A DNA stretch of 64,000 bases. Origin: Castor canadensis. Taxonomy: Eukaryota > Chordata > Mammalia > Rodentia > Castoridae. This document shows positions 2,717 to 35,960 of this stretch, in pieces. The stretch's first letter is position 1. The number at the start of each line of letters is the position of its first letter. The notes under the pieces were generated by a model. The model did not search any database, had not been told where the DNA came from, and saw only the letters and a program-made list of their open reading frames with translations. The translations under genes and the position numbers were made by a program. The DNA lies in contig NC_133390.1 of NCBI RefSeq assembly GCF_047511655.1, forward strand, positions 157,229,583 through 157,293,582, given 5' to 3'.

Positions 2717-3012
2717 GTAAATTATGTAACCTGGATTTTTGGAAGACTGCAGGGAGGGGCTCAGGCCTGCTTTTTTTTTTATTTGGGGAAGAAGGAGATG
2801 CAGGGCAGAGGGAAATGAATTGCCCAAGGTCCTCTAAACAGTGTAAAATAATGGCACAGCTTTTAATGTCAGGTCTACATGACGCTGTCCATCACTGCTG
2901 CTAAGAGTCACTGCTTCCCAGATACAGACTCACCCCATCCAAGGCAGGCAAGTCCTGGCTACAGCCAGAGCCACCCCACCCACTCACCTGGTTCTCTGCT
3001 TTTCCCTCCAAG

Positions 3013-3266
3013 GATCTTCTGGTGCTGAGTGCATGAGCCACAGAAAAAGAGACACTGTAAGAAGCCAGAACTTGCCCTGGAGAGGATTTGCCTGGATACA
3101 GTCCTTGGCCTTGAGTCCCTTCAGCTTCACCAACAGGTCCCTCCCACCCTCTTGCTCACCTGCCCTCAACCTGGGAAAGGTTCCAGCCACAAAGGATGCT
3201 ATGCAAGCGCAGCTCCGACTCCGTCGTGAGCATCTTATGCTGTCAATAAAACATTCCATTTTCCCT
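3013..3266 (+). CDS. BPIFB4: BPIFB4 terminal exon (C-terminus and 3' UTR)
   Basis: BPIFB4 is a long secreted BPI-fold protein (two BPI half-domains) of the PLUNC cluster. Only its last exon is in the window. A pyrimidine-rich acceptor ends in AAG at 3010-3012, and the exon opens in phase 0 with the codons for DLLVLSA and then TGA at 3034-3036. As I recall the human sequence, BPIFB4 ends in exactly these residues, which is the basis for the name. The 3' UTR continues to an AATAAA at 3245-3250, so cleavage is expected near 3265. BPIFB4 lies immediately upstream of BPIFA2 in human and mouse maps, which fits BPIFA2 at 48-64 kb here. The region from just before this exon was tandemly duplicated, and a diverged copy lies at 26483. 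Confidence 0.8.
3245..3250 (+). promoter_or_regulatory. BPIFB4: Poly(A) signal of BPIFB4
   Basis: Canonical AATAAA in the motif GCTGTCAATAAAA, about 210 bp after the BPIFB4 stop. The same motif is kept in the duplicated copy at 26743-26748. Confidence 0.75.
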
Positions 3267-3949
3267 GCAGTTGCTGAGTCTCAGTGAAGGAACCTCCCTG
3301 GGGTCTGCATGGTTTTCTTCCCTCTTTGGCTGCTCCTGAGACATTGGCAGCCAGAGTTACATCTGGGTGGAATGGTGCAGCCTAGGACTGAAAAGTGTCA
3401 GAAGCAACAGAGGAACCCATGGATGTGCAGGAGGGGCTTTGGTTCAGTTCTTTGTGCCTTTGTTCTGCATTCACCTTGGCTGATCCCTCTTGCCTCGATT
3501 TCCCCCATGAGATCTCAGTGCATGGGGAGGGCCAGGACTCAGGAGCAATAAGTTCAAAGTCATCAGACATCAAACTGTCAGAGGATTGTCATAGTCTATT
3601 CCCAGAGTCACTGCTTCCCAGACTTGCCCCACCCAAGTCATAGCCTATTCCTGGGTGTCATTGTGACAAGGGTCTTCTCTGCTTCGTGGCTTTCATTTGC
3701 TCTCTCTTGCTTTCCCCCCCTCCTGTTTCCCTGCTATGACTTGTCCAGGTCTGGAAAGGGTGTGTGCCAAGTCTCAGAGGAGAAGTGAAAGGGGCAAAAA
3801 ACTCAACATCCTACCCCCAAAATCCAAACCAGGACTGGCATCTGCCCCATCCCCCTGAGAGCTCAGGTCTACTAAGTTCTGACTACCCAGTACTGAGACT
3901 TGGGAGTCCACCTTAATATCCTCACAGTGGGATAGGCACCAGGATGGCC

Positions 3950-4045
3950 CTTACTTCACAGATGGGGAAACTCAGACACTGACAAATGCAGGGACATGCC
4001 CAAGGTCACACAGCTGAGGGTTGCACCTGAGGAATTCACCCTAGG
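3950..4045 (-). repeat. MIR SINE fossil
   Basis: Reverse-oriented MIR core: CACAGATGGGGAAACTCAG followed by CCCAAGGTCACACAGCTGAG. The duplicate lies at about 27435-27535. Confidence 0.7.
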
Positions 4046-4654
4046 ATCCACATGTTAACCTCTCAGCATCTCAAAACAAGTGGCAAGGGCCTTCTAGGCT
4101 GAATTTGTCCTCAAAGTCACAGAGTTTCCAGGCAAGAGAGCAGAGCAGGAAAACATCCTAGCAGGGATGTTTCTGCTAGGAAGAAATGTCAGCTCTGCTC
4201 ACATTTCATGGCAAAGGAAGTCACGAGCCCCTACCTGACCTGCCAAGGCAGGGAAGGACAACAGAAACGCCGGTGACCCCCATGAGTTTCCCATGCTGTC
4301 CTGGGTGGGTGGTGCTGGTGAAGCACCTGAAGGGGACAGTGGCTCTGCTGCCATGGAGATTGTGCTGTGGATCCAGAGACTGTGCAGCCGCCCAGAGAAG
4401 GTTCGAGGGGGCTCCAAATCACCCTCTGGTTCTAGATATAAAGCCCAACGGCGGTACACTCAAGGAGACTAGACCCTGGTCACCTCATTGTCCCTCAGGA
4501 CTTCCGGAAACCCCAGCTGCTAGACAGTGGGGGAAACTGCTGTCTCTTCACATTAAGAATGGTCAGCAGCATTGTATGAAGGGTCCCCTGCAAACAGGAC
4601 AGCTTTGGACACCAATGCCAGAGGAGCAAGAATTTTGGAGCCAGGAGGAGGGGA

Positions 4655-32967: not shown

Positions 32968-33070
32968 CTCTCTCTCTCTCTCTCTCTCTCTCTCTCTCTC
33001 TCTCATTCCCTCTCTTACTCTCTGTTCTCTCCTCTTTCTCTCTCTTTCTTTCTTTCTTTCTTTCTTTCTC
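32968..33070. repeat. (CT)n and CTTT simple sequence (duplicate copy)
   Basis: About 18 CT units and then CTTT repeats up to 33070, joined directly to the L1M-type fragment. The counterpart of 9690-10080 is missing. Confidence 0.9.
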
Positions 33071-33071
33071 A

Positions 33072-33650
33072 CACAACAACGTGGATAAATCCCATAAACA
33101 TAGTGTTGAATGAAAGAAACCAGACTCAGAAGAGCATGTTCAGGAGATTCCATTTATATAATATTCAAAATCAGGTGAGACTACTCCATGGTCTGAGGAG
33201 AGTAGTTACATTTGGGGAGAGTGAGAGAATGGGAAGGATCTAAGGGGAGGTTTTGGGGTGCAGGTGATGTGTTGTTCTTTGTCTGGATACAGGTCATGTG
33301 GGGTTTGAGTCTGCTAGGCTGCCATAGTTAAGGAGCCCTGATTGGGTGCTAAGCAGCAGAAATTCACTTTTTTCCAGTTCTGGGTTTGGAAGTCCAAGGT
33401 CATGGTGCCAGTGGGGTTGGTTCCATTACGAGGCCTGTCTCCTTGGCTTGTAGATGGATGGAACTTTCTTTTCTCTGCCTCTTCACGTGGTCATCCCTCT
33501 GTGTGAGCGTCCTATCTCTTCTTACACGATAGTCCTATTGATCAGCCACCACCGTGACCTCACTTTAAACTAATCACCTCCTCAAAGATCCCATCTCTGA
33601 ACACAGTCACATTCTGAGGCATGCGGGGCTAGCACCCAGCATATTAATTG
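33072..33650 (+). repeat. Old repeats, duplicate copy (L1M-type fragment and unassigned repeat)
   Basis: ACAACAACGTGGATAAATCCC to about 33240 matches 10060-10260. From 33300 to 33650 it matches 10300-10640. Divergence between copies is visibly higher here than in the core. Confidence 0.6.
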
Positions 33651-35294
33651 TTGGGGGGGGGGTGGGAGCACAGCTGAGCTGCTGACACATGGGGTCACTT
33701 TATAGAAAATCCTCTGGCTGTATGCTGATGACTTGGGCCCTTTATGTGTGTGCTCAGCTGTGAGGGTCACATGGTGTCTTAAATTCTATAACAAATCAAA
33801 CAAGAAGGTAAGAAAAAGGCCACCAGCATACCAGATTAAACTCTGGGGAAAAGCTGGATGGAGGTGGGGCACTGGGAAGGCCACTCCATCAGTCCCCAGC
33901 AGATAAAGTTGTGACCAGTCCAAGAGGAGGCTCCGGCCCTGAACAGAGGCTCAGGCCTCCTGTGTTGCTTTGCAGATGGTGCAGCTTGAGACTGGGGAGC
34001 AGGAGACTGGGCTCCTCAACCCTGCACAACCCCTCTCCCCCGCTCAGCCTGGCCACACTGGCCTGCCCCCATGCCAGGCGTCCCTCACCCTAGTGGGGCT
34101 GTTTATCTTCCTCTTGTGCTGTGACATGGGAAATGGCAAAGATACTGCAGGCAGGCGGGAGGTCCGCCAGCCTCCTGACCACAGCTCTTTGGCTTGGTGA
34201 CCTAGGGAGTGACTCTCAGTTCTCACATCAGTGTTACCCTGAGGGCGCTGGGTACACCAGGGTGCCTGGAAGGCACAGGGGGTGGAATTACAAGGAGTGC
34301 TACAATCGGGTCACTTTGATCTCTTCCTGTTCAGCACTCATGGTGTGCCCTTGCTCAGCCCCTTCACCTCTCTGGTCACAGCCTCCTCTGGCTCTGACAT
34401 TCCCCCTTCCCACGCTGTGACAAGTCCAGGAAGAGTCACTGGTGACAACTGTGTAATGTCACAGTTTGCACATTACATCCCTGTTCCACAGAGGGGTGTA
34501 AAAGGCCAGTTCCTAGAGGGAATCTGGACCCAGCAGAAGGAAGGGACACAGTCAAGTTTGCACAGTTGGCCACCAACAGAGTGGGACCTGTTGTGAAAGC
34601 CCCCCATGTCCCATGGGGGAAACAGAACCAGGAACAGTGATGGGCAATTCTGGAAAGTTCTGAACCTATTTCCGGTCAGAATCCTCTCAGGAACACACAT
34701 ATTCTGAAGAACGCTGTTTGGTAATGGAGTACCCCAGCTTTGATGGGGCTCCCACAGAGGCTTTACTTTTTCCTGGCACCACTGTTTCCTGAGGAAATGC
34801 TGAACTATTGCTGGAATTCCTTCAGAAACAAACCAACAAACTTTCAGAAATAGAGAGGTTCCCCCAAAGAGAGGCCAACGGTCCTCAGGAATTCTGGATG
34901 TTCTGTATGGAAGGTATGAATTCTGGGGGAATTTTGAGATTTCTCTGAGGAACAAGAAGACCTCACAGAAGGTTGACAATCTTCCCCTGTCAGTGTCTGA
35001 CCCAGAAAGGAGACTCCACAGTGGCTCAGTTACCTTACAATTGGGAACAAACTTGAGCGGGGACAGGTTGAGCACCTTGGGGAGTCAGATTAGAGGTGTG
35101 AACACTTTCTGCAACATTGCAAGTATTCACACAGAGCAGATTCCACAGATGCACAGACACACATGAGCCTGCAGCCACACACACCCATGTGTAGTCACAC
35201 ACAGATGCAGCACACACAGACACACATGCACAACACACAGAGACACACACAGGCACACACAGGCACATACGGCTCTGTGGTGTCTTAAGGAAGC

Positions 35295-35960
35295 TAGTTA
35301 TGCCTCTCAGTGCCTTTCCTTGTCTATAATCCTTATGCTGAAGGTTGTTGTGAGGATTAAACCAGAAATTTGGAGCTCAGCATACAGTAGGTGTACACTT
35401 AATGCTTTTTCCCTGCTTCATTCTTCAATTGACTATTTAGATGTAAGTTTTCTTCCTCATGTCCTCCCCACGGCTCCCCAATCTCACCTCCTTCTTCAGT
35501 GGCCTGCATCCTTTCTGAAGGGTGCTAAGAGCAGGTGCAAAGACACAGAATCCAGGTTGTGATCAACCTTGCCAAAGCTAGACTCCAGGACAGCCAGCTC
35601 CACAGAGACAAGTGTCACAGTGGGGTTCCTGAGATAGCCCACTCCATAGCTGTAGTCAGTGTTTGAAATATCTCACTCCATAATAAAGATATTGCCATTG
35701 TGTTTCTAGGCTAACCCATTCCCTCAGTATTAAATTGAATGATTGTGGTCATTACAATCATAGTGTTAAGACTAAGTTCCAGGTCTATCCCACTACAATG
35801 AAGAACTTGTGCTGGGATAGCCCACTACTCTACATTTCCAGTCTTTCATGGAGGACCAACTGATTTCTGAGTCTAGAGGAATTTTTTTATAATTGTTCTC
35901 CTGTTCCATTCCCCAGATTCCCTCTGCCCACTGTGGAGGTAGGCTGGGGTGGGGGAGGTG
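35295..35960 (+). repeat. Segmental duplication, right block, copy 2
   Basis: Homologous to 25624-26345. It begins CTAGTTATGCC at 35295 (CTAGTCATGCC in copy 1). It ends around CTGCCCACTGTGGAGG near 35940, after which the sequence is unique. Confidence 0.85.
35405..35447 (+). pseudogene. Dead copy of exon 9 of the BPIFB-like gene
   Basis: Matches 25750-25792, but the acceptor and first codons (CTCAGGACAAATACTT) are gone. The TGG codon of the copy at 25750 is TGA here (CAATTGACTATTTAG). The donor ATGTAAGTTTT is still intact. It is the only coding remnant of the second copy of this gene. Confidence 0.75.

Follow-up and report, generated by a model that had tools for sequence, protein, structure and literature searches.

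A directly repeated, patchily similar unit in the BPIF (PLUNC) gene cluster of Castor canadensis and its probable history of duplication, deletion and gene conversion

The duplicated unit and its genes

In the rodent Castor canadensis, a stretch of 64,000 nucleotides from the BPIF (PLUNC) gene cluster (assembly GCF_047511655.1, contig NC_133390.1, forward-strand positions 157,229,583 to 157,293,582; hereafter the window) contains a unit of 23.46 kb that occurs twice in direct tandem, with strongly uneven similarity between the copies. The unit runs from ~120 bp within the last intron of a gene that we take to be BPIFB4, after human BPIFB4, to just beyond the 3′ end of the next gene, which is predicted to be BPI-fold-like. 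It therefore spans the end of BPIFB4, whose terminal exon is found inside copy 1 at 3013, together with the eight coding exons of its neighbor. The window is free of N; features are given in window positions and lie on the plus strand unless stated otherwise.

Comparison of the window with itself by BLAST revealed four collinear plus-strand pairs with bit scores of 601-10284: 2892-9571 with 26357-33070 (93.6% identity), 10088-10792 with 33067-33807 (86%), 10878-12334 with 33803-35293 (78%) and 25622-26223 with 35291-35884 (81%), the last of which was extended to ~26345 and ~35955 by MAFFT alignment. Copy 1 is composed of a left block (2892-12334, starting in the last intron of BPIFB4), a 13.3-kb segment that is found in this copy only (12335-25621, delimited by self-BLAST and the gene model) and a right block (25622-26345), which carries the last coding exon and the 3′ end of the BPI-fold-like gene. 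The tandem junction (26346-26387) contains a 16-bp near-tandem, GAGTCACTCCTTCCCA, and copy 2 starts at 26354-26357, directly behind the end of copy 1. In copy 2, the left block (26357-35293) and the right block (35291-35955) abut at 35291 with a three-base overlap, AAG. An earlier sequence-only reading of the window had described two blocks in the same order that touch in copy 2 and had predicted diagonals of self-comparison at offsets near 23.5 kb and 9.67 kb, all of which were recovered, the offsets measuring ~23.47 kb and ~9.67 kb, with block coordinates correct to within ~15 bases. Its proposals of a direct tandem duplication, of a later 13.3-kb deletion in copy 2 and of a unit reaching from the last BPIFB4 exon across the next BPIF-like gene of the PLUNC/BPIF cluster are likewise supported by the evidence below.

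The blocks are collinear, paralogous and in direct order, and they are not a mobile element, as is typical of segmental duplications; the usual limits for such duplications (>1 kb, >90%) are reached by the left part, 2892-9571, only. When probes 3000-4000 and 5000-6800 were searched against the 2.81-Gb assembly, they matched the two copies only, with the exception of a single 48-base stretch (85%) matched at the left boundary of copy 2; for repeats, such match counts are lower bounds. Copy 1 alone contains 456 bp (9632-10087) beside a long (TC)n tract. The 1-kb stretches at the outer ends of the unit match each other at chance level only (best 12 bases, E 0.12), hence a homology-driven origin of the duplication is unlikely and was set aside.

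Between the blocks of copy 1, a gene is predicted at 15330-25878, with GT/AG splice sites, matching phases and an open frame of 329 amino acids (aa). Its coding exons are located at 15330-15408, 17783-18125, 18751-18855, 20666-20803, 22142-22205, 23368-23428, 24751-24821 and 25750-25878, the last of which runs to the stop codon and is followed by AATAAA at 26030 in the right block. The sequence-only reading had placed eight gene exons between the blocks; of the eight coding exons of the present model, seven lie in the gap and the eighth within the right block. Exon 1 appears by eye to encode a signal peptide (MLWTLLLLWCLL), and exons 5 and 6 measure 64 and 61 bp as in the neighboring BPIFB4 (61 counted by hand), while the sixth exon of BPIFB1 differs from 61 bp by hand count. 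The signal-peptide exon, the exon sizes and the phases are those of the BPI-fold family. The spliced protein matches PF01273, the LBP_BPI_CETP N-terminal domain, with an E-value of 1.1e-5 and a score of 25.6 bits, which does not reach the curated cut-off of 28.8, and the 13 matches in the PDB with E up to 5 included no BPI relative. Pfam searches of the three plus frames of 12.0-26.4 kb and of 36.0-50.4 kb found no family, the C-terminal domain of the two-domain BPIFB type included, in a scan that missed the N-terminal domain too. Exon 8, the putative last coding exon, contains an internal GTAAGT.

The gene model leans on the choice of exons for its open frame: of the eight coding exons, a scan with strict thresholds recovered one and a laxer scan four, the latter together with five candidates in 12.3-26.4 kb outside the model, and the remaining four were chosen by eye. 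In tblastx searches for exons across the cluster, repeats resembling long interspersed nuclear elements (LINEs) dominate, and few true matches were left after masking. Another candidate for exon 2, with its start near 16645, was rejected because its frame runs into a stop at 17042. Upstream of coding exon 2, the region 16645-17780 contains open stretches and GQSGxxxxGG-like pieces in different frames and may represent a longer exon 2 that has decayed; no repeat was reported there by Tandem Repeats Finder.

The terminal exon of BPIFB4 (3013-3265) stands behind a good acceptor, its coding part, 3013-3036, ends in DLLVLSA-stop and its AATAAA lies at 3245. Its decayed twin, 23.5 kb downstream in copy 2 (26483-26763), keeps the acceptor and an AATAAA at 26743, with a frame that reads NLLVLIMWA-stop; both 3′ ends are guesses, that of the BPIFB4 exon being placed from the poly-A signal. 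Such a twin could confuse read mapping and annotation. At the other end of the unit, copy 2 is without the 13.3 kb that hold seven of the eight coding exons of the BPI-fold-like gene and retains a remnant of exon 8, in which the acceptor is gone through a 28-bp gap and an in-frame stop is present.

Alternation of near-identical and divergent segments

The identity between the copies, measured in 200-column steps along the blocks, varies from ~60% to 100%, a feature absent from the sequence-only reading. Over 91 windows of 100 columns, the variance is 0.00778 against a binomial expectation of 0.00065, a 12-fold excess. A three-state hidden Markov model (HMM) with state identities of 0.72, 0.90 and 0.995 was run over 9,184 aligned columns, the four blocks being treated as one chain that leaves aside the (TC)n tract with the adjoining 456 bp, one gap of 90 bp and the final 120 bp, and it delineated 15 segments. 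Three alignment settings gave the same segment table except for 26049-26222, with 36 or 42 differences. Background segments (3008-3277, 9365-10266, 11238-12283 and 26049-26222) have Kimura two-parameter distances (K2P, or K) of 0.26-0.31, older patches of 0.06-0.13 and recent patches of 0-0.011. The terminal exon of BPIFB4 lies in the first of the background segments. All four, which cover both blocks, differ at 21.9-24.8% of positions (chi-square p 0.75 in two settings and 0.60 in the third), in agreement with one duplication of both blocks, a weak test as the segments were selected by one identity state.

The largest recent patch is a core of 4.6-4.8 kb (4523-9293 in copy 1, 28018-32791 in copy 2), which lies just left of the (TC)n tract and is 99.6% identical outside an island of 67 bp with 12 differences (7578-7644; 31086-31152 in copy 2). 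Its left part (4523-7577) is 99.7% identical, with 9 differences in 3,049, and its right part (7645-9293) 99.4% identical, with 10 differences in 1,639, amounting to 19 substitutions in 4,688 columns and five indel events. Alternatively, the left edge could be placed at 4631, behind a cluster of two substitutions and two gaps; from there to 6608, a single substitution is found in 1,978 bp, beside sequence that is 10-23% diverged. Two shorter recent tracts lie apart from the core: 3514-3695 with 27007-27188 (98.9%, 2 differences in 182), and a 120-bp tract without differences (25929-26048 with 35581-35700), which covers the 3′ end of the BPI-fold-like gene and its AATAAA at 26030. Among the older tracts, 10267-11237 pairs with 33249-34172 at a K of 0.057.

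The longest identical run measures 1,756 bp, while the maximum in 1,000 permutations was 187; an internal tract is thus far more similar than both its flanks, beyond chance, as is characteristic of gene conversion. The density of indels per kb is 17.1 in the background (17.7 in one setting), 11.6 in older patches and 1.0 in recent patches, two of the 15 HMM segments (2892-3007 and 9294-9364) being left out of these class totals. Since indels were not used for drawing the segments, their agreement with the patches is consistent with conversion tracts. A mobile element as the source of the identical core was rejected, probe 5000-6800 being found at two places in the genome only.

History of the locus and competing explanations

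The duplication is real and old, and the kind of event is already well known. The locus as a whole is very probably best accounted for by an old tandem duplication, a deletion in copy 2 and repeated non-allelic gene conversion. As to the order of events, their mechanism and their ages, we infer that the 23.46-kb unit, which extends from the last BPIFB4 intron across the neighboring BPIF (PLUNC) gene, was duplicated long ago by a break-and-join or replication-type event, the ends of the unit being without long homology. Copy 2 would then have lost 13.3 kb, nearly the whole of the copied gene, and been left with the BPIFB4 terminal exon, now decayed, the intergenic DNA and a disrupted last exon. 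The paralogous stretches would then have exchanged sequence repeatedly, as suggested by the alternation of patches of differing divergence, and the largest recent patch would have been laid down in two parts flanking the unconverted island.

If substitutions accumulate at 2.2e-9 per site per year, the age of the background would be ~60-70 million years (My), or 30-50 My at the faster rates of rodents, and the two large core tracts would be ~0.7-1.4 My old, all of these being rough and uncalibrated values. The sequence-only reading took the region to be probably lineage-specific; with a background K of ~0.3, the duplication could be shared by related genera or families. This corrects the dating, as the 93.6% identity of the best block suggests a fairly young duplication while the unconverted parts point to an old one.

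That the copies differ by 13.3 kb could also reflect an insertion of this segment into copy 1. The pair of blocks alone cannot discriminate between the two, and the join shows only AAG either way. Insertion is nonetheless hardly credible: a single open frame with consistent intron phases joins exons 1-7 of the segment to exon 8 beyond its edge, and a broken exon 8 persists in copy 2. Furthermore, across 290 kb of the cluster, the best 12 of the 117 non-self matches of the segment were all <250 bp, and no second copy was found. A deletion from copy 2 is favored because a lone remnant of the last exon can be understood only if the gene was formerly present in copy 2. The sequence-only reading went further in holding that one duplication and one deletion explain everything. 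The order of the blocks, the offsets and the deletion scar do fit such a two-step history, but the spread of K2P values within a single pair, 0 to 0.31 from segment to segment, together with the excess variance among windows, makes it highly unlikely that nothing else happened. This claim was wrong, as four recent and several older conversion patches are required, provided that the recent tracts are no artefact of assembly. An assembly or consensus artefact, in which reads of one copy built both, would explain 1,756 bp of perfect identity and gains some weight from an account that rests on assembled sequence rather than reads. It appears improbable for a core that differs by 19 substitutions, five indel events and an island with 12 differences, and the older patches of several ages require a real process regardless.

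The core could instead have been homogenized by unequal crossing-over, through a temporary third copy that was later lost. Direct tandem copies can misalign, and such exchanges would likewise give a recent common origin; however, two exchanges would be needed, with switch points flanking each patch, and the 67-bp island and the separate 120-bp tract, which argue against a single crossover, would not readily be left behind. We therefore regard this route as very unlikely. Purifying selection on a regulatory, RNA or coding function could partly explain the intermediate patches (K 0.06-0.13) as constrained sequence, and the two copies of the core share open frames of up to 166 aa (for example, 5614-6111 and 29127-29624), which identity alone would give. 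Constraint leaves unexplained a stretch of 1,978 bp with a single substitution beside 10-23% divergence. Rfam gave no match in the window at gathering scores, Pfam searches of 2892-12334 in all six frames yielded only two weak matches, both in a single minus frame, far under the cut-off and over (TC)n, and on the minus strand the longest open frame measures 205 aa in copy 1 (4495-5112) and 170 aa in copy 2. Selection as the cause of the similarity of the core is thus extremely improbable.

Several points weigh against the proposed history of duplication, deletion and conversion. The HMM relied on manually chosen state values and on a chaining of the four blocks with stretches omitted. The order, direction and dates rest on one assembly of one species and one haplotype. 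The core shows no enrichment in GC (0.506, with 0.527 and 0.509 for its flanks in copy 1), hence there is no sign of GC-biased conversion, although such a bias is not required of gene conversion. In addition, a human survey reports few conversions, 325 events in 66.1 Mb, in duplicates more than 10% diverged (PMC10172114), which makes a recent multi-kb tract at this locus somewhat unexpected unless the core had been kept similar by earlier exchanges. According to a review, conversion is regarded as occurring mostly at identities above 80%, and the minimal stretch of identity is put at roughly 200 bp (PMC3924818). The core could meet these limits if earlier exchanges kept it similar while its edges escaped.

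The locus illustrates, on a small scale, patchy concerted evolution next to a cluster of immune genes. As a tentative and rather doubtful extension, a duplicate whose surroundings are ~25% different might keep a place of recurrent and recent gene conversion within DNA that has no known gene, and its patches of at least four ages would form a natural record of conversion shrinking and escaping. On the same tentative footing, selection may have prevented the terminal exon of BPIFB4, in the unconverted segment 3008-3277, from being overwritten by its decayed copy.

Genomic neighborhood and comparison with known systems

Exons matching PF01273 were found 21 times in the genome, 10 of them on C5 at 157.15-157.41 Mb and 8 near 161.6 Mb of C5. 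Left of the window lie further exons presumed to belong to BPIFB4, and BPIFB1, located with a probe that we take to represent it, lies at ~177-198 kb from the window start. Within the window, a single-domain BPIF gene that is presumably BPIFA2-like extends over 49173-62062, with three exons found by scan, the first near 49.17 kb. Repeats at 1834-2708, 52636-53509 and 56753-56920, which we take to be LINE-like, are 82-93% identical and have more copies in the cluster; copy 1 starts ~180 bp to the right of the first. tRNA-like short interspersed nuclear elements are located at 46780-47030 and 19700-19930 (GTGGAGTGGTTCAAGTGGTAGAG...) and would be in keeping with a castorimorph (beaver-like) rodent.

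In mouse, Bpifb9a and Bpifb9b form a tandem pair in the BPIF/PLUNC cluster. The unit described here is similar in being a tandem duplication in the same gene cluster; it differs in that the second gene copy would have been deleted and in its place between BPIFB4 and BPIFA2. Among the titles listed in a search of the literature, none dealt with this duplication or with conversion in the BPIF/PLUNC cluster; one paper, PMC5773202, mentions PLUNC, BPIF and gene conversion. Interlocus gene conversion in human segmental duplications, as portrayed in the survey cited above, likewise involves multi-kb tracts of near-identity, patchy ends and several ages, with events that average 6.26 kb (PMC10172114). 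In contrast, the background at the present locus is ~22-25% different, well past the range given there for most human events (PMC10172114).

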